Shown piece after piece: positions 7,964 to 22,660 of a stretch of DNA of 64,000 nucleotides. How positions within the stretch are numbered: the first letter of the stretch is position 1; every line of letters begins with the position of its first letter. Source of the stretch: Bryoerythrophyllum caledonicum (Eukaryota; Streptophyta; Bryopsida; Pottiales; Pottiaceae). The DNA is taken from the NCBI GenBank assembly GCA_963971425.1, contig OZ020525.1, positions 2,959,560 to 3,023,559 of the forward strand. Direction: 5' to 3'. A model generated the notes under the pieces. It had not been told where the DNA came from. It worked only from the letters and a program-made list of their open reading frames with translations, and did no database searches. Made by a program: the position numbers and the translations under genes.

Positions 7964-9544
7964 ATGTCTTCAGCTCAAGATGTTGCCACCTCCTCCAAGC
8001 GCCTCTTTGTTGATGTGGTTGAGGGAAGCCCCGTTAACACTAGTCAAAATGTCTTGTTTATCACAAACACCACCCAGAAAAAAGTGAGGGCAACAAGTTT
8101 GCCTTTCACCGAATACTGGCTAGGTTTTCATGCAATGAATACAATTGCGAAGAAAAATGGGAATGATAAAATACCAATAGTAGGTATTGAAGACTTGGTC
8201 AAATGTGGTCTAAATACAAAAGAGGCAAGCGAAAGTTATGGTGCAATTCCTGCCTTTCCATTTACCCCCCAAACTGAGTGGCCATCCAAAAGAATGGATG
8301 GGAAAATGGGTAACCATTTTAATCTCACTCAACTTCCAAGTGAAGTTGAAGTGGATAAAAATGGTTATGCATTAGACTACCAAATATCAATCCACTTCGA
8401 GCTCGGGGATCAAGTTTGGACAAAAGATATTGTCCTAGATATGATAAAAAATAGACTAAATGAAATGGGAATCCCTACTGGGGTAGACATTGGTGAGCCT
8501 ATAGCCATTTTTTGCTACCACCAAACCAACAATTGGAATGGGGTCATTAAAATACACTTAAAAAACCCCGAGATTGACGGTAGAGGATTGTTGAAAGGAT
8601 TGAGACCCTTCATTCTCATCTTGAATGAAGGGATTCCACATAAGGGGAAAGTATGCAAAACATACGACTCCCTTGCCTTCTCACACCTCTTATCAGTGAA
8701 AATTTCGGGTCCAAACCTTGTCAATAAAGAATCATATGAATTACATGAAGAGATTGTAAGGGAGAGCTTTGCGAGAGGGCAGGATTTTGAAATAACCGGG
8801 GTAGAAAAAAAGGGTTTTTCTGACTTTGCATGGGTCAAAACTCCCTCCCCGGAGCAAGCGGCCAAAATAAAAGACTATAAAGTCACTTTCTCCAATGAGA
8901 TTTTTGTGCCAAGCTTTGCAACTAGAAAAATGGATGAGGATGAAATTGCAAAAAAGAATTGTCTTATTCTCATCGCTAAAAACCTCAATAAAACAAAAAA
9001 TGAAAAGGAACTTGCAAATGGAATCAAGTCCATACTCGGTGAAGAGAATGTGGTTGATATATTCTTCAAACTCGAGCATGGGCGGCATGTGGGGACTTGT
9101 AATATTGAATGTCTAAACGCTGCAGTATACAAAAAACATGTCAAACAAAGCAAGAAACTTCATGGAAAGTATGTCATGTTTACTCCCCACCCTAAAAGTT
9201 TAGATGGAAGTAATAAACCGAATGCGGATGAACTTGCGAGATTAGGGTTCTCAGATGTAAACTCGGCAGTTGCCAATGCTGTGATTGCCATGGAGAATGG
9301 ACCAAACAAGGGCAATGGCGTCACCTTTGAACAACTCCGAAAGGAAATGAAGACTATGAAGGGGGAAATCGTTCAAGAGGCAAGACAATACGCGGATATG
9401 GTACAAGCCAACACGGTGAAGTCCCTTAGAGGGGAAATGACAACTCTTCGATCTCAACTCATCCAAACAATCATGGCGGCCGAGTCACAAGCTTCGAAAC
9501 GGGAGCAACGTGCTATAGAAGGCAAAATGGACACGTCAAACTAA
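7964..9544 (+). CDS. LINE ORF1 protein: RRM-like domain plus coiled coil
   Basis: An intact 526-codon frame starting at ATG 7964 (MSSAQDVATSSK). The frame is open further upstream to 7556 but has no better start. It is the presumed RNA-binding ORF1 protein that packages the LINE RNA. A first possible RNA-binding fold lies at about residues 165-220 (PIAIFCYH ... VIKIHLKNPEID ... LRPFILIL). A clearer RRM-like unit lies at about 330-412, with LILIAKNL as the RNP2-like strand and HVGTCNIEC as the RNP1-like strand. The C-terminus (about 455-522) is a heptad-rich coiled coil (LRKEMKTMKGEIVQEA ... LRGEMTTLRSQL). No CCHC knuckle is seen. Base composition is ordinary, unlike the G-poor ORF2. It stops with TAA 640 bases before the ORF2 AUG. 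Confidence 0.75.
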   Translation: MSSAQDVATSSKRLFVDVVEGSPVNTSQNVLFITNTTQKKVRATSLPFTEYWLGFHAMNTIAKKNGNDKIPIVGIEDLVKCGLNTKEASESYGAIPAFPFTPQTEWPSKRMDGKMGNHFNLTQLPSEVEVDKNGYALDYQISIHFELGDQVWTKDIVLDMIKNRLNEMGIPTGVDIGEPIAIFCYHQTNNWNGVIKIHLKNPEIDGRGLLKGLRPFILILNEGIPHKGKVCKTYDSLAFSHLLSVKISGPNLVNKESYELHEEIVRESFARGQDFEITGVEKKGFSDFAWVKTPSPEQAAKIKDYKVTFSNEIFVPSFATRKMDEDEIAKKNCLILIAKNLNKTKNEKELANGIKSILGEENVVDIFFKLEHGRHVGTCNIECLNAAVYKKHVKQSKKLHGKYVMFTPHPKSLDGSNKPNADELARLGFSDVNSAVANAVIAMENGPNKGNGVTFEQLRKEMKTMKGEIVQEARQYADMVQANTVKSLRGEMTTLRSQLIQTIMAAESQASKREQRAIEGKMDTSN

Positions 9545-9694
9545 TATTGATAAACAACGCTGCAATAAATCTAAATATAATAGTATATATATATACTACA
9601 ATAAATAATAATAAAAACCGGAAAAAACATTATAAAAATTCACACAAAACTAAAACTAAAACCAAAACCTTAGTATATTTATATACTACTAAAC

Positions 9695-10093
<399 letters not shown>

Positions 10094-10130
10094 CTCTACA
10101 CCCCTCCCTCTAAAAACCACAAACATTACT

Positions 10131-10184
10131 CATTTAAAACTACTAATTATACTTTGCGGAGACATAGAAACTAACCCCGGCCCA
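10131..10184 (+). other. 2A-like ribosome-skipping motif at ORF2 N-terminus
   Basis: In the ORF2 frame the codons immediately before the first ATG (10185) read HLKLLIILCGDIETNPGP. This matches the canonical D-(V/I)-E-x-N-P-G-P motif, preceded by the short hydrophobic stretch typical of 2A-like sequences found in APE-type LINEs of animals. The predicted break lies between the Gly at 10179-10181 and the final Pro (10182-10184), one codon before the Met. The frame is open to the left through poly-Gln up to 9693 but has no AUG, so a 2A event would require non-AUG initiation or a frame change in the CAA tract. Confidence 0.85.
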
Positions 10185-10830
10185 ATGCCAAATGTCTTCC
10201 TCAACCATCCAAAAACACATAAAAGAGTATCCAAAATCTATTTCATTCCGAATACTATAAAACTCCACCCCAAATATCAACATCTAGCATCTTCGTTTGT
10301 GCCACTTCTAAAAAATAACCACATACTCCACCATACTTATTCCACCCTCTACCCCAACATTTCCCATTACATACATCAAAAAAACGGCCACCCACCCCCA
10401 CATATCTTATTCGCCATAATTACCACCCTCCACCCTTCAATAGAAGAATGTAATAATATCACCAACCAACAATCTACCAACACAAATCCAACACATTGGA
10501 CAAATATATTATTAAACACCCTATCCTCTTTACACAATCCCCCTAAAAGACATATAAATATACCCCACCCATATACCAAATTCCTAGGAGAAAACCAACA
10601 CCTTCTTGAACACAAAACTTCTTTACACAACGACCTATACAACTATATTCATAGCCAAACCCCACCCCCTTCTCCAGATGAACTACAACAAAAATTTCCT
10701 TACTTCCCGCACAATCTTATCCTTGAAGCTCTTAGATGTTTTGAACCTATTCATGATTACACGCATCCCACTCCAACACTCACTTACATTTCCCCTCCAT
10801 CCTGTAACCATGAAAATATAGATAATAAAA

Positions 10831-11605
10831 ACACATACTTTACTACATGGAACGCCTCAACATTAAACACTGCCCTACCATGCATCCACAAACTAACCAC
10901 CCACACCAACACACCACCCGCCATAATTGCCATACAAGAAACTAAAATTACCGCTACTAAATCCACAAAATACATACAAAAGATATTCCCGAACTATAAA
11001 CTTATTTTCAACAACACTCATTCTCTCACACGATGCACCCAACAACGAAGGCCATATACACCGGCAAGAGGAGGTCTATTCATGCTCATACACCAATCAT
11101 ATGCCTTCCCCGGGAATATTACTAAAATCCCTACCCCGGCTAATATTTCACCATATCTTCAAATCATTGAAATTACTAACCGACCCCTTCAACCATGGCT
11201 CATCCTACACCTATACATGCCTTCGCACACAGAAGACTCTAGGCTCATTCCGGACATCCAAAATTCCATTACCTCACAAGTAAATACACACACTAACCAC
11301 ACAATAATACTCTGCGGAGACTTTAACCGAGATATCGCCCTTATTGGACGACGAAACGGAGAGGTTTTTACCCCCCCACTCGACATAGACCATCAATGGA
11401 AAAGATACACGGACGATCTAGATTTATATCTAATCCCAACTTACACACAATACTCTCGTCAAGGAGGACTCAATTACGCACACACTAGCCTAATTGATGG
11501 ATTTTACATTAAAACACCTAACCATACTCAATATACATCCATTACCAATACTACAACCAACTTAAACTCGGACCATTATCCAATCCAACTCAATATACCT
11601 CACAA
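10831..11605 (+). other. APE-type endonuclease domain of ORF2
   Basis: Exonuclease-endonuclease-phosphatase fold motifs occur in order: TTWNAST (strand 1 Asn), IIAIQETKI (metal-binding Glu), RGGLFMLI, LILHLYMPS, IILCGDFNRD (catalytic Asp/Asn), SLIDGFYI and LNSDHYPI (terminal Ser-Asp-His). All key residues are present. This is the nuclease used by APE-class LINEs to nick the target. Confidence 0.9.
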
Positions 11606-12499
11606 CACCCTTATAAGCAGACCTCCCGCTACCATCAACTCACATAACATTAAAATACTAAACCCCATTCCAAAAGAAAACCTTGCCAACTTTAACACAA
11701 TATTTTTTGAAAAAAACTCACCACTAATAGACTCCCTTACAGATACTCTTTCTAACCATCAACACCTCACACACATACAATGGCAGGAAGCTTGCACAAC
11801 CCTTGACCAAATTATTAATGAAATCTCTAGTACACTAGAAAAGACTTGCAAAGCTCCTCCAATCCCACAACTCATACCTAGGACCTCAAAACAAGGGGGG
11901 TATCTCCCAAGAAAACTAGCAAAAAAGTGGAAGCAACATCTTGTCACATACCACATGATTCGTAAAACAATTCATATTGCTAAAACTAACCAAAATTGGC
12001 GAACCCACCCAGTACTATCCGAACTACAAAACCTCCGTCACCCCCAAATCCCACAAGTACCAATACCCAACATCCATCACGAAGAATGGTTAATAGACAT
12101 TGCAACCATTGCAAAAAATGCCAACAAAGAAGCTCGGAAAATTACTACAAAATATGCAAGAGAATGTGTCAAAAAAGCCATTTCTAAGTATCGTCAACTA
12201 TACGAAACTAGCCCAAAAAAGATTAATAGAAAAGTCTTTAAAAATAACACAAACCTGCCACTAGACTGTATTTTAGATCAAAACAACAACATCTTAACCA
12301 GCCCTGACGACATCGCAAATGAAATACATTTTCAACAAACGAGAAACAACAGTCCAACCACTCCCCCATGTCACTTCCAACCACAACATACACCAACATG
12401 CACATGCGGTGTTAGGCAATACCCGTGGCATGATTTGGACGGATTTACAATTGATAAAAGAGGCGAACCAACAACACCTCTCCACACATATTACAACAG

Positions 12500-13520
12500 A
12501 CACATATAACATGTGTCTAAAAAATTTGGGAACCAACAAAGCCCCCGGTCTGGACCATATACCTAACTCAATCCTAAAAAACATGCCCCTAAGATTCCAC
12601 GACCTTTTATCATTATTCTTCCTTCACTGTTATAAACAAAAATCCATTCCCACATCTTGGAAAACAAGTCTAACAATCTTATTATACAAAAAAGGAAACC
12701 CATCTGAGCTACCTAACCACCGACCTATTGCCTTAGCTAACACCATTTATAAATTATATACTAGCACAGTAACATCAATATTATCGGCTTACGGGGAAAC
12801 ACACCAAATATTACACAAAAGCCAAGAAGGGTTTAGAGCCGAGAGAAGTACCACATGGTAACTTCAAACCCTCATTGCCGCACTCGAAGATGCAAAATTC
12901 ACCAATAAAGATATTTACATACTCTACATCGACTTTAAAAACGCATTTGGTTCCATTGACCATCCTCGATTACTAGCCATAATGAGTGATCTTGGGTACC
13001 CGGAAGACGCAGTCACATTGGTTGGTAATATATATTCTCAATCTACCACTATATACATCGGAGAATTCTTTGGTAAAACACGCCCTATCTCCATCCAACG
13101 GGGTACCATCCAAGGCGATACATTGAGCCCGTATCTCTTTATTATTTTTCTAGAACCTTTATTGAGATGGCTTCAAAGAGGCGATAATGGTTACACATTT
13201 GGCACCTCAAAAATCACCGTAAACTCGGCCGTATATGCCGACGACCTAGCAGCCATCTCCGGCCACCTTAAATCACTCCAAATTCAATTAGACAAAATAG
13301 ACAAATTTTGTCTATGGACCGGGATGGAACTTGGGGTCCAGAAATGTGCCGTAACGGGATGCCCAAACAAATCAAAAATAAATCCGACCGCCTTCAAAGC
13401 CCTCATTCAAGCCACCAATATCCAATATCGTAACCAACCAATTCCGGTTCTCAACCAAAACCAACCCTACATATACCTTGGAATAAACCTAGTCCCATCG
13501 TTAAAATGGAAAACTCAAAT
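12500..13520 (+). other. Reverse transcriptase domain of ORF2
   Basis: RT motifs: NKAPGLDHIPNSILK (motif 0/1), ILLYKKGN..NHRPIALAN (motif 2), YIDFKNAFGSIDH (motif A with catalytic Asp), IQGDTLSPYLF (motif B), VYADDLAAIS (motif C with both Asp), LGVQKCAVTG (motif D) and YLGINLVPSLKW (motif E). The domain is interrupted by a stop at 12859-12861 just before motif A. Confidence 0.95.
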
Positions 13521-15159
13521 TCACGCTACTACTACTAAACTTATTAAACAATGCAAGGAACTTACACTATGTCCGGCCACATTGCAACAAAAAATAAAAA
13601 TGATTGATACCGTCATACGACCGGGTATCTCCTATAGTTTCTATGCGGTACCTTATTCCATGCCCGCCATAAACAAACTTGATAAAAAAAATCATAGCCA
13701 TACAAAAGAAAGTATGTGGACTCCCTAATTGTACTCCCAATGTCATAACACAACTCCCCCACGAACTATTCGGATTAGAAGCTTTTTCCCTCAAAGATGC
13801 CTATCTACGTTGCATCGGAGAACAACTCCAGAATGCACTTAACGACAAGGGACGACTAGGACTAATCTATAGTGGACTCCTTCGGCACATCCTTGCCATC
13901 TATGGAGGAGCACAATACCTCCAAAGACTTAAAAAAACTGACTGTCTTCGGTCTCCCATTACCCGCACACTCTTTCTACTCAAAACAAAAGGTCAAACAT
14001 TTCTAAACAGCACAATAGAAAATTTCCTACTAGGCCCCGCGCCACTCGAACAAAATTGGGCAAATGAAATACATAATCTCCCAAGACTTGACCGACAATT
14101 ATCCGCCAAACTCCTACAAAAACTTTTCTCTGCAAACATTACCGACCTGAAACAAATTACACTACCAAATGGAACACACCTTATGGACGACAAGAGCTAC
14201 AAAATATTCTACGGCACCCCCCATAAATTAATAAAAAGTGCACTAAATATTGCTAAACAATTATTTTGTCACCCTCCATGCCTCCCTATATGCCCCAACC
14301 CTTGCACCACCCACGCCACACCGTACACACTTAAGGACTCATACATCATCGATCACAATAACACCCACCACAATATAAACCTCCCACTAATCCCTCCAAA
14401 CCCGCCACATTCACGACCATATACTCCCCCACCACATGTATTAAAAAATCCCTCCATACACCCAATAAACAACATAACTGCACACAAACATAGAAAGTAC
14501 ATTGACTCCTACAACATAAACAAACAATATACGTCATACCTATGCCATTGGACCGACAACAACACCACCTACGCCAAATGGCTCCCACAAAGAAATCTTT
14601 TCCCTTGGCATAACCCAAATACTTCCCTACATAACACCGAAATCCTCACACAATACTACCTTAAAACTCAAAACAATTACTACCTAAATATCATACAATT
14701 ACACCACCCTCAAGCACAAATTCGAGATAGAAGATCTGTCACGCCACCTCTTATTATCCCCCTCCTTAACATCTTTACAACCGAATGCAACCCTGAAATT
14801 GACATCCTCGCACAAACAAATACAATCAAAATACAACAAGATAATGCCGACATATACGAAGATAATGGGAGACATCTAATAACCATACCACTCGCTAGAC
14901 TACAATGGCTGTGGAACCAATATCACGACGCAATACAAACCCCCATTAACATTGAACCAATACCGCAATCATTTGAAACCGAAATTGTTTGGCTATACCA
15001 AAGATATAACTACCGAATACCCAAAAATGAACCCCTTAAAAATGCACACTACACAATACCCAATCCTATCTTAGACTACCTTATTACATCTCTAAATATA
15101 ACACATTCATACTTCTCATCCCCCGTTACATGCTCCACAAAAATCTCAAAATTCTACTC

Positions 15160-15520
15160 CCCATTCGAACGAGATAAGATCTTTGGTTCTCTTGGAAAAG
15201 CTTTTGATTATAGGTGGAGCGGAATAGGCCTTGCACACCCTCACAATGAAGAAGAAACACAACAAGCAATACATTGGGCACGCTTAGCGGCAAACAATGA
15301 CCCTGACCACAACATCACCATTATTATCACTCCCGACACTCATTGGTACCACAACTCCAATCCACACTTAGGCCCATTCCCGGACTCACACATCATAGTA
15401 CTATTTGAAGCCGACTCTATGACTTACAAAGAACCCACTATATCCCCGCATATACAAACACCCCGCCTTGAACCAGCAACCCTACGTATCCTATGCATAC
15501 ATCACCAAACTCGAGAAATA
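15160..15520 (+). other. Unassigned globular module between RT and RNase H
   Basis: This part of ORF2 contains FGSLGKAFDYRWSGIGLAHP, then EEETQQAIHWARLAANN, then ITIIITPDTHWY and GPFPDSHIIVLFEADS. Alternating helix and beta-strand patterns suggest a compact alpha/beta fold. It faintly recalls adenine-methyltransferase-like modules carried by some retroelements, but no clear DPPY/NPPY catalytic motif is seen, so I leave it unassigned. Confidence 0.4.
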
Positions 15521-15729
15521 GGCAATCTAGAAAACCTCACTCATCTCACTTTGATAGCAAAAAATCTAAACATTAACAAGGTACACACCGCAACTGCCTC
15601 TCCCACACCCATTTCAACCCGTGTAAACCGCAATAAAAAATGGTCTAAAACCCCCCACACAAACATTCCCACAACACCAATTACCAAACTAAGCCTCCCC
15701 CTTTCCTACTACCAAATTAATACAGACCT

Positions 15730-16190
15730 TAAATTTGACCCCAACTTTAGCTACTACACGGACGGCTCCTTTAAAGAACCAACTGAAGTAAGCCCGGGAC
15801 ATTGGCACCGAGAAAAAGCCGGTTATGGGATATATAATCCAACCAAACAAATTAAATCAAGCAAAAGACTGCATGGACTCCAAAATATTCTATGAGCCGA
15901 AATGATGGCTATACATAAAACCCTTAAAATAATCACAACTCAATACCCAAATGAACCGGCTCACATTTTTACAGATTGCGTAAATGTATTATATCTCCTT
16001 AATACACACATTAAACATCCTACTTTACACAACAGTCACCCGGATAAAACTATCCTTACATCTATGGTTGCAATGCTCCAGAACCGTACACAGATTACTA
16101 CACTTTACAAAGTCCGAGCCCATGCTAATATCGACGGTAATGAACAAGCCGTCAAACTAGCAAAGGAAGGAAGAGAAAAAACCCACAAGA
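15730..16190 (+). other. RNase H domain of ORF2
   Basis: RNase H motifs: YYTDGSF (first Asp), GYGIYNP, the Glu of AEMMAIHKTL just after the TGA at 15893-15895, HIFTDCVNVLYLL (third acidic residue), then HANIDGNEQAVKLAKEG (the terminal His/acidic box; the usual GNE.AD reads GNEQAV here). The two truncated copies at 24.0 and 25.6 kb cover this region and the region after it respectively. Confidence 0.85.
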
Positions 16191-16534
16191 ATGCCGAACA
16201 CCCATACGAACACGCCCATGCCACCCCATATTACTTCCATAGATATGAATGGCCCTCTATGGGCGATACTCCCGATAAAGGCCCCATACGATTCTTGGAC
16301 AAATACCTCAAAAAACATGATCTTATAAATAACCTAGAAAAACTCACAGAAAACTTCCCCAATATTGATAAATGGACTGGCAACCCAAACATTCACAACG
16401 TACTGTCCAACAATTTTTGGAAAAACCCCATTATAACAGATCCACAAATCACATGCCTAATCAAATTCCGTACCGGACAATACATGGGTAATGCCCGCAA
16501 ACAACTCTTCTTTGGAATAGAAAGATTTCCTACA

Positions 16535-17080
16535 ATTACATGTCCAATTTGCAACACCACGGACCCAGACACATGGCTACATGTCTTACTCAAATGCCAA
16601 AACCCCCATATACACTCACTAATAGTCAAAAGACATAACAAAGCCGTATGGGCTATTCGTAAACTACTTATATCATCAACCAAATCCCGGTGTTTCATTC
16701 TCATGAATGCCGGAACCTTTAATGACAACCCACAAGAAAATACGGTCCCTCCTTGGCTATTGCCTTGCATCTGTCATACACAAAAATGCCACTGTAATGC
16801 AAGATTCAAACCGGACCTACTATGTGTTAGAGGACTTTCATACAAAGACCCCCCACCAAACCACATTGACCCTAGTCTCACCATCCAATTTATAGAATTC
16901 ACATATTGCAACGATAGATTCTCTCCGAACACTATTGCAAACAAAACAAATAAATACCAACCACTACTTGACGATATTCAAGCACTAGGATGGAAAGTAG
17001 ACCCCCTCATTGTCATCACCGCGGGTGCTAGAGCCACCACCTTCATTCCCTCAATGACAACCCTTGAAGAAACATTTAAA
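16535..17080 (+). other. CCHC finger and restriction-like endonuclease of ORF2
   Basis: CPIC followed by WLHVLLKC gives a C-x2-C...H-x4-C finger. After it comes VKRHNKAV, equivalent to the conserved R-H-N/D after the finger in R2-type proteins. Then RFKPDLLCVRG (the K/R-P-D motif), IQFIEFTYCND (acidic strand), NKYQPLL (Lys/Tyr helix) and DPLIVITAGARA. This order is that of the PD-(D/E)XK restriction-like nuclease of R2/NeSL/CRE LINEs. The degenerate copies at 24.9-25.3 and 25.9-26.2 kb keep the acidic strand (IEFKYCN). Confidence 0.75.
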
Positions 17081-17218
17081 ATCCCCATCACTTCAATCAA
17101 AACCACTTTTTCAAATATTAACATCATTGCAACTCAACATGCTTTGTCGATACTCCTACATAAACGAAAACTAGAAAACAACCAACCCCTCCCTGACGCT
17201 TCAAACCCCCCTTCATAA

Positions 17219-17464
17219 CTCTACACTTGCATCTACATCTCACCGCACTTGCCCCCCCTCTCTTTTCGGACTTTTTGGGACCTAGGGTCTTTTTGATATT
17301 GGTTACTTGTTACCGGATACATAGTGTCTACCCTCGAAAGGGGGAAGTAGTTCCATACTACTAACCCATGCCCGGTGGGCATGGACTTAGTGGTGGAATG
17401 AACGGACACTCTACTCACGCCAGCCCCCTTCGGGGACCGGCGTTCTTCTTCTTCTTCTTCTTCT
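17219..17464 (+). promoter_or_regulatory. LINE 3' UTR with two hairpins and (TTC)n tail
   Basis: Hairpin 1 (17366-17384): CCATGCCC pairs with GGGCATGG around a three-base loop. Hairpin 2 (17424-17435): a C-rich stem closed by a C(TTCG)G tetraloop. The element ends in (TTC)n. The same two hairpins recur, with changes that keep pairing, in the truncated copies at 594-726 and, for hairpin 1, at 25.48, 26.46 and 27.30 kb. This is the likely recognition site for the element's reverse transcriptase. Confidence 0.8.
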
Positions 17465-17476
17465 TGTGATAAAATC
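17465..17476. repeat. Target-site duplication, right copy
   Basis: TGTGATAAAATC, identical to 4048-4059, directly after the (TTC)n tail. Confidence 0.85.
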
Positions 17477-20851: not shown

Positions 20852-22515
20852 CTATCTACGGTTGAGAGGCTCGTGCCATATTTGGAAACATCCTTTCTTG
20901 AAACACATGAATCTATTTCCACATGTTGGATAGTAAGAACAACCCCGCACTTTGCAAATAATACATAGTCCACGAGGATTTTGTAATGTTACCGGATAAC
21001 ATACGGATCCTTGATTGCAAATTGGAAGTACTTCTCGCACGTCTCTACGTTGCTTATTCTTGGTCAATGCCTTACACATTTCCTCCATAAATTGTAAATG
21101 TGTCAGTGGATCTCTAGGTGGAGAACAAGATTTGCATTTTTCTACACAAATAACATACATATTCACCGATGTCATGTCTAACAAGAAAAAAAAGATGCCA
21201 CCACTTATGCGTCCGATCTTGAGTAGCATATGACGCCCTCAGTTGATCAGCGACGTCTACACCTCTCTTATGTATAGTATATTCTAAATGAATTGGCGAT
21301 GTTGTGATGTTTTCCCGAACGGCTCCATTTCGTCGAGGAACTGTACCTATCGGTAAACCGGGAGTTACTTGAGGCAATGCATGCGTGGAAAGCAAAATAA
21401 CCGGTTTCTTGTCTTTCCATATGACGCATGCAGTTTTCCGTGATGTATGCATTCTCCATGCAAAAATATCTTGTCGCTCTCCTGCAAAGATTCTAGTGTT
21501 TTTACAGATACGAGGAATGTCAACCATATTAGACCTAATTGTACCCGTAGCATAAATATCACGTTTTAATAAACTAAAAAATAACCCAATACTTGTAAAA
21601 TAATTATCCATCACCAAAACACGGCCTCTTTGTCCTATGTCTTGAACCAAATCTAAAACCACTATGTGAGCTAGTTGTGGCTCTCCTCGTGAAGTTGGGG
21701 GAAGATTGACCGCAATGGATGTTTTTTTCGTAATATACCTCAAAATTCCACACAAACTTTGTAGCCAAATTTGCTAAACACCATACTTTGATGCCCCACT
21801 TTTGCGGTTTTTGTGGCATATATTCACACAATGGACAATATATACCCTTATATCTAACCATCATTTCATCCACCATACAAAATTTTCCTAAATTCCAAAC
21901 TCTTTTACAATTGTCTCGTATAAAAGTTACGAGCCATCGAACTTGTCCTAACTTGTCATATCCAGGAAGCTCCCTATTTCTCATTTAGGTATTTGTATTA
22001 GTAACATCTAAACAACTCTTAATGTAGAAAAAACAGATTCTTGTCACAAGGTTGGATAAAGTGGAACAATGAGAAATCAAATCTTTCTGATAGCAATAAC
22101 TTCACATATTCGGTTGTCTATTCATATCCATGTACAAACATATGGCCAATAACACTTTCAAATATAGGATGTTAAAATCTTTCCAATTGCGTACGCCAAT
22201 ACATCTCCCGGAAGAATTTGTACTTCGAGCATAACAGTTTCTTTCAACAATTATTTTGCGCATCAAAACCTCGGGCAAAATTAAATGAAACAATTGCATT
22301 AATGATGGAAAGAAATGCCATGCTGCTACATGCCCCGAAATACCATCAAAATCCATTAGCATAGGAGAATAGATTGAAAAATTATCATCCCACGTTGACT
22401 CTTGATATAGATGTTTTATGCTTTCATCGTGCGCTTCGCTTGAAATTGTACCATTGTCCTCACTCGAACTGTCGTGAATATTATCACTATCATCATGCAA
22501 AATTGGAATGTTCAC
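20852..22515 (-). pseudogene. piggyBac-type transposase (DDE_Tnp_1_7), frameshifted
   Basis: On the minus strand, open segments in successive frames cover a piggyBac-like transposase in order. N-terminal acidic part (22515-22102). The first catalytic Asp box is MVDEMMVRYKG followed by YMPQKPQKWGIKVW (about 21.9-21.8 kb). The second is RVLVMDNYFTS with YATGTIRSN (about 21.6-21.5 kb). The third is KRGVDVADQLRASY followed by THKWW (about 21.23 kb). The C-terminus is Cys/His-rich, CIICKVRGC and CFKKGCFQIWH, as in the family's zinc-binding tail. All three Asp are present, but at least three frame changes and a stop after RQPNM break it. Product would cut and paste DNA at TTAA sites. No terminal repeats or TTAA duplication were found around it. 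The N-terminus abuts a Crypton-like remnant at 22.6 kb. Confidence 0.85.
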
Positions 22516-22589
22516 TCTATCTCCATCAATATAGTTAAACGGCTTAAAATAATTAAACAGCTCAAACTGGTTGCTTTGAGATTTTGTCC

Positions 22590-22660
22590 GGTAATTGTAA
22601 AATATGCAAAGTTATCAAAAATAATCACATGTCAGTACCTTTGACAACTAGCAAAGAGTT
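22590..22660 (-). pseudogene. Small remnant related to the 2.3-kb Crypton-like gene
   Basis: On the minus strand, GTTGTCAAAG then GTACTGACATG, followed by GATTATTTTTGATAACTT and TTTTACAATTAC, matches the exon-intron junction of the 2.3-kb gene (GTTGTCAAAG ... GTACTAACC ... GATTATTTTTTGATAACTT ... TTTACAATTAC). The 2.3-kb copy has about 30 extra bases before the donor. Only about 60 bases match clearly. Confidence 0.5.

Follow-up and report, generated by a model that had tools for sequence, protein, structure and literature searches.

The translation of ORF2 in LINE retroelements is a long-standing question, and one element in the genome of Bryoerythrophyllum caledonicum raises it in a pointed form: how do ribosomes reach an enzyme-encoding ORF2 that directly follows a 2A-like peptide motif and a spacer free of start codons? 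The window analyzed here is the whole 64,000-nucleotide stretch of DNA containing this element, all parts of which lie on the + strand. ORF1 (7964-9544) is related to a widespread ORF1 family and encodes 526 aa from ATG 7964, ending in KMDTSN directly before the stop codon TAA at 9542-9544; it had no Pfam match over the cut-off and no PDB match. A spacer of 640 bases separates it from ORF2, which opens with ATG 10185. The 18 codons directly 5' of this ATG (10131-10184), translated in the ORF2 frame, read HLKLLIILCGDIETNPGP and form a 2A-like segment that is conserved across copies. The first-pass annotation had described a full 2A-like motif with a hydrophobic lead, adjoining the first AUG of ORF2 in a dual-endonuclease LINE, and a spacer without AUG. 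Both descriptions were confirmed, and no ATG of any frame occurs between 9545 and 10184. Its two explanations, a non-AUG start within 9693-10184 or a motif persisting as a remnant, were not supported, as the motif is kept and its frame is continuous with ORF1 at -1 in most copies.

The core of the segment agrees with the 2A (StopGo) consensus (D/G/C/N)(V/I)ExNPGP, to which a 2026 virus survey widened the motif (PMC12846837). A hydrophobic upstream context was also present, with a KLLxLL-type lead in most of 39 sequences inspected by eye; the DIEQ family carries FDTSTLLHRC in its place. Within the window, the codon pattern of the motif occurs at a single site when both strands are scanned. Across the 437 Mb of genome searched, the D(V/I)ExNPGP codon pattern was found at 1717 sites (880 + 837), compared with 2 (2 + 0) for the pattern read backwards, which rules out a chance motif. 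An ATG immediately followed the motif in all 25 pattern loci inspected.

Conservation was assessed in two sets of copies. With the N-terminal ORF2 protein and its motif as the query, 58 scored family copies were obtained from 6275 first-look candidates, and 54 of these, the window copy among them, carry the exact 2A core; the remaining four have NLGP (two copies), NPSP or a decayed end. The second search used only the residues after the motif of a diverged family and returned 150 scored hits, from which 19 regions were sampled along the list. The exact core was present in 12 of these 19 relatives found without the motif in the query, and a recognizable decayed core was present in the other 7. 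In all 19, the 2A segment ends at an AUG, directly before M-P-N or M-P-D. For the last nine codons of the segment, pN/pS was 0.21 in the ORF2 frame versus 1.43 and 1.19 in the shifted frames in a set of 21 representatives, which differ from one another by six or more changes and were taken from 71 copies of both sets (6 of the 58 family copies could not be placed). Likewise, 12 representatives thinned from the 19 motif-free-query regions gave 0.21 versus 1.32 and 1.34. The KLLxLL-type lead is looser, with pN/pS values of 0.65 and 0.73 in the sets of 21 and 12 representatives, respectively. As the ratio is low in the ORF2 frame and above 1 in the other two, the 2A peptide is translated and selected, and its retention across diverged families argues against a remnant. 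The 2A-like motif is thus real and is neither a product of chance nor a relic. The check that had been proposed for it, conservation in other copies with synonymous bias, therefore came out in its favor, and stops between the repeat tract and the motif, which had been named as grounds for rejection, were seldom seen: in only 2 of 58 copies (L016 and the decayed L030) is the ORF2 frame interrupted within 30 codons of the motif.

Two departures from the standard arrangement were observed among individual loci. The related copies L103 and L104, which contain stops, share the core GDIEHHPGP and possibly represent a 2A-dead lineage. In L007 and L117, a decayed older 2A (GDMETNPRP followed by MPNILKRH) lies in the linker upstream of the intact 2A, and the frame is open through both, as if a new 5' part had been placed ahead of an old one.

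The domain content of ORF2 indicates which kind of LINE is involved. P0002, a naturally uninterrupted ORF2 of 2344 aa from locus L087, contains APE, reverse transcriptase (RT), PCIF1_WW and RNase H domains; its APE match falls just under the Pfam cut-off and is clear with a profile of 16 sequences, built from the P0002 C-terminal segment and 15 relatives. This profile matches three parts of R2, namely the RT, the zinc knuckle and, with a weak match, the endonuclease tail, as well as PCIF1 structures, APE/ExoIII and RNase H. Among PDB matches to the RT, three R2 chains rank first, followed by LINE-1. Against the R2 structure, the CCHC stretch (i-E 3.8e-4) and the restriction-like endonuclease (RLE) tail (i-E 0.11) are collinear, the tail being weak when taken alone. 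The CCHC residues and the RH and D residues are invariant in the 16 sequences, and the P of PD is nearly so. The profile was needed here, as a search of the C-terminal region with a single sequence found nothing. APE, RT and RNase H in ORF2 together with a C-terminal CCHC and RLE are the features of Dualen/RandI elements, and on this APE-plus-RLE domain architecture, as predicted from sequence, the element is classed as a Dualen-type LINE. Dualen is described as encoding both endonucleases in the relevant part of PMC4640811 and as present in Chlamydomonas and relatives in that of PMC8226300.

The best-scoring named relatives of the ORF2 protein come from green algae (Haematococcus, Parachlorella and Pleodorina), with oomycetes and animals scoring lower. 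An exact 2A core within one long predicted ORF is present in six of the 100 relatives listed (P0012, P0026, P0051, P0057, P0065 and P0075), of which four come from Haematococcus, and in the five that were scanned, all but P0057, this core lies ahead of the APE domain. The other 94, many of them incomplete, have no exact core. The position of the core ahead of APE in relatives suggests that the placement of 2A between an N-terminal part and the enzymes probably predates the B. caledonicum genome, and it is the separate ORF1 in the -1 relation that is the special feature of the element studied here. Two metagenome relatives, P0079 and P0085, show LLLLLSxNxAxLLNPGP, a hydrophobic lead and NPGP without D(V/I)E, which may be a diverged or lost 2A. 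As a further observation, a PCIF1_WW-like domain, of the cap adenosine methyltransferase family, lies between RT and RNase H (14963-15337 in the window copy) and is common to many relatives; among the matches listed in the literature searched, no paper was found on this domain in retroelements.

With the motif under selection as translated peptide, the frame in which ribosomes arrive at it becomes the central issue. The end of ORF1 was located in 47 of the 58 family copies. Where both ends could be placed, ORF2 stands in the -1 frame relative to ORF1 in 30 of 44 copies, in +1 in 10 and in frame 0 in 4; the copies are related, so that 30 of 44 does not represent 30 independent events. The spacers of these 44 copies, measured up to 48 nt before the ORF2 ATG, range from 187 to 1235 nt. 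In 28 of the 30 -1 copies, the -1 frame crosses the spacer without a stop, and frames 0 and +1 contain 2 to 15 stops each. Readthrough of the ORF1 stop was also considered and is ruled out by the 2 to 15 stops in frame 0 of the spacers in the 44-copy set. Among the 47 copies with both ends located, the linker is open in the -1 frame from ORF1 to the 2A in 31, a condition found in 14 of 16 copies whose ORF2 is intact and in 17 of 31 whose ORF2 is broken (Fisher p 0.049, just below 0.05). In the remaining 16 of 47, the window copy included, the -1 frame fails to reach ORF1, and two of these copies (L012 and L057) have an intact ORF2 but a closed linker. Since the 2A frame is continuous with ORF1 at -1 in most copies, no start codon is needed.

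The same relation was found outside the family. The ORF1 end could be located in 8 of 12 extended loci of other families, and a fully open -1 linker was present in five of the eight (L067, L077, L078, L117 and L118). As L078 and L118 come from a single family and the ORF1 end of L067 is that of the window's family, these amount to fewer than five independent cases. Stops in frames -1/0/+1 numbered 0/11/5 in L067, 0/8/6 in L078, 0/6/15 in L077 and 0/6/4 in L118. In L117, a diverged copy, a linker of 3206 nt contains 0/109/118 stops, and L075 has 2/37/53 in 1796 nt. In L082 and L119, ORF2 is not in the -1 relation to ORF1. When the non-repeat part of 15 spacers was shuffled with dinucleotides preserved, between 0 and 28 of 2000 shuffles kept the -1 frame open. 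Furthermore, the -1 frame extends 5' of the ORF1 stop, overlapping ORF1 by approximately 19 to 115 nt in L067, L075, L077 and L078 and by 40 to 58 nt in L117 and L118. An overlap of the 0 and -1 frames of this kind is found in canonical -1 programmed frameshifting, and from its extent of about 19 to 115 nt the shift can be placed close to the end of ORF1.

A candidate shift site is present exactly there. The sequence G TCA AAC (9535-9541), directly before the stop TAA, is invariant: ORF1 finishes with the codons TCA AAC in all 47 family copies with a located ORF1 end, in which many nearby codons differ by silent changes, and the codon ahead of TCA AAC has G as its third base in every copy (47/47), whether it specifies T, K, M or L. 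Among the other loci, G TCA AAC recurs in L067 and L082, G CCA AAC in L075, L077 and L117, and G ACA AAC in L078 and L118; L119 has C in place of the G, and its linker is closed. The site, G NCA AAC, does not have the form of the X XXY YYZ slippery heptamer, and we therefore call it -1-shift-like rather than canonical. No canonical heptamer common to the families was seen by eye in the ORF1 overlap. The frozen G-NCA-AAC may instead represent an undescribed type of -1 shift signal. As a weak candidate for a shift stimulator, a small possible stem-loop (TATTG...CAATA, 9545-9567) follows the stop. Small stems at this position, TATTGC/GCAATA or TAGCGT/ACGCTA, the latter an alternative stem of other subfamilies, are found in many copies and absent in some, and the folding of 11 sequences gave z from -9.2 to +0.4 against single-base shuffles, which is weak evidence.

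The strongest alternative to slippage concerns this same site. The -1 frame might be entered by another event at the ORF1 stop, such as AUG-less termination-reinitiation, hopping, RNA editing or splicing, with the rest of the model unchanged. Apart from the noncanonical heptamer, at which P-site re-pairing after a -1 slip would be poor, such an event would suit the position of the stop directly after AAC in the window's family, L067, L075, L078 and L118, and the ORF1 proteins themselves: 75 of the 120 relatives listed end in Asn or Asn-Met (39 SN/TN, 13 EN, 10 IN, 10 NM and 3 other). The 45 that do not end in this way probably include some cut by contig ends. The residues before the Asn end are variable in 14 aligned ORF1 relatives, and one scan each of viral and genome contigs recovered no DNA relatives of the metagenomic ORF1 relatives. 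Against an event tied to the stop, AAC and the stop are one or two sense codons apart in L077, L117 and L082, and no shared codon fit for a restart was seen after the stop. We therefore regard entry by such an event as rather unlikely.

A less probable alternative is initiation in the 2A frame at some non-AUG codon of the spacer, perhaps helped by the unstructured CAA tract, with 2A then releasing ORF2p. It would accommodate the failure of the frame to meet ORF1 in the 16 copies noted above, two of them with intact ORF2, as well as the lack of an in-frame AUG in the linker of most copies compared and a conserved lead that, in the 39 sequences inspected by eye, begins only some 20 to 25 codons 5' of NPGP. 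The same 39 sequences, however, show no near-cognate codon at one place before the 2A, and a spacer start predicts neither a -1 frame open back into ORF1 across differing linkers nor a frozen ORF1 end, which makes this reading improbable. Very improbable is a start of ORF2 at AUG 10185 by internal entry or reinitiation, with the 2A as a remnant: the AUG does follow NPGP in 25 of 25 pattern loci and 19 of 19 sampled relatives, and the spacers of the 44 copies contain only 0 to 3 AUGs, but the protein-level constraint on the 2A, found also in relatives recovered without the motif, and the C at both -3 and +4 in 57 of 57 placed copies speak against it.

C at these two positions, which the adjoining Pro codons dictate, is a poor initiation context by the usual rule. 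The AUG behind the 2A is thus a poor start, perhaps a back-up, and could provide a second route to ORF2p.

In our judgment, a -1 shift at the ORF1 end, passage through the linker and release by a working 2A/StopGo is likely how intact copies of this Dualen-type family are expressed. Ribosomes would translate ORF1, and a fraction of them would slip to the -1 frame at, or a few codons from, the frozen G-NCA-AAC, bypassing the ORF1 stop. The shifted ribosomes would cross a low-complexity linker rich in Asn, Gln or Thr and often bearing a microsatellite. At GDIETNPG|P the chain would be released, and the same ribosome would go on to make an ORF2p starting P-M-P-N. ORF1p would be the main product, in excess, and ORF2p would be made at a smaller ratio. 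The linker varies by kilobases, and the 2A would give ORF2p a clean N-terminus whatever its length. The shifting of ribosomes, 2A skipping in the host and the ratio of ORF1p to ORF2p are what we infer from these sequence patterns. The more general formulation, that LINE enzymes are made here through two serial recoding events, a -1 site of a new type (G-NCA-AAC) and a natural StopGo, with a microsatellite linker insulated by the 2A, is favored with somewhat less assurance.

Each component of the proposed route has a known counterpart. Work by Odon in 2013 and by Heras in 2006 reportedly described 2A in APE-type LINEs of animals and in L1Tc/ingi LINEs of trypanosomes. In such elements, the 2A is close to the N-terminal end of an ORF that begins with AUG. 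The B. caledonicum element resembles them in that D(V/I)ExNPGP precedes the non-LTR enzymes and differs in being a dual-endonuclease LINE of a plant-type genome, in which ribosomes would come to the 2A from ORF1 by way of a -1 shift and across a long linker. Gag-Pol-style -1 frameshifting in retroviruses and LTR elements likewise bypasses the stop of a first ORF to make the enzyme part, as proposed here in the -1 frame; in contrast, a 2A instead of a protease would separate the parts, and there is no canonical slippery heptamer. With Dualen/RandI of green algae, the element shares APE, an R2-like RT, RNase H, CCHC and RLE, and some algal proteins also carry the 2A core inside one long ORF, whereas here ORF1 is separate and in another frame, and the PCIF1_WW-like domain shared with many relatives is added. 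Cardioviruses (Theiler virus, EMCV) also bring two recoding events together, combining StopGo and a -1 frameshift in one coding region according to the portion of PMC5009743 that treats them; their shift comes just after StopGo and leads away from the enzymes, whereas the one proposed here would precede the 2A and lead toward them. Occurrences of 2A in LINEs are cited for trypanosomes and other species, including sea urchin, in the pertinent passages of PMC11512398 and PMC4981915. Among the matches listed in the literature searched, which covered few subscription papers, there was no report of 2A in Dualen, green-algal or plant LINEs, nor of a LINE using a -1 shift together with 2A.

If the model is true, the pairing of a -1 shift with 2A would be a novel mode of expression for an element of this kind, in effect a Gag-Pol strategy in which a LINE dispenses with the protease, and the first natural StopGo shown in a land-plant-type genome. 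The survey in PMC12846837 found no evidence that plant viruses use StopGo naturally and mentions that it works in plants when supplied in constructs. A natural plant-lineage 2A, with approximately 1700 coding sites in one genome, would thus provide the biology that is lacking as well as native 2A peptides for use in plants, and an abundant family with conserved frames makes the proposal testable by short reporters.

The window copy itself no longer follows the scheme. Its linker contains a (CAA)132 microsatellite (9696-10091), and the -1 frame (9430-10113), which is already open within the tail of ORF1 and crosses both linker and tract, reads the tract as poly-Asn and ends at a stop at 10111-10113. 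ORF2 consequently stands at +1 to ORF1, with 7 stops between them. The poly-Gln frame noted to the left of the motif in the first-pass annotation is true for this copy; it is due to the loss of register at the 3' end of the CAA tract, where register is maintained in other copies, in several by means of an A-run. The ORF2 region (10185-17218) is broken by frameshifts near 12.4 and 13.7 kb and by in-frame stops at 12859 and 15893. Its first part (10185-12509) holds the N-terminal region and APE (approximately 10845-11585), and the frame is lost near its end. The second (12298-13728) holds the reverse transcriptase in two pieces, interrupted by an in-frame TAA at 12859-12861. The third (13673-15895) includes the PCIF1_WW-like domain and ends with a TGA at 15893-15895 inside the RNase H region. 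The fourth (15896-17218) comprises the rest of RNase H, the CCHC (from approximately 16541) and the RLE tail, which were placed by comparison with P0002 and the profile, as this piece alone had no Pfam match. The window copy is dead, with its linker register lost at the 3' end of the tract; it is therefore not expressible in the way proposed, which agrees with the broken state of its ORF2.

The surroundings of the element yielded a few further observations. The LINE appears to end in a (TTC)n tail (17441-17468) after a GC-rich segment, and its 3' end seems microsatellite-linked. An ORF of the window with a C2 domain had no relative at E 1e-10. Downstream of the LINE, pieces of a piggyBac-type (DDE_Tnp_1_7) transposase lie at 21114-21773 and 22102-22611 on the - strand, the latter being a weak match. 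Elsewhere in the assembly, the RuBisCO large subunit (rbcL) was found on three small contigs, C821 (locus L120), C590 and C894, with 9chz as the best PDB match; this points to a photosynthetic host resembling land plants, unless these contigs are contaminants. Its neighbor on C821 is presumably accD, which looks plant-like.
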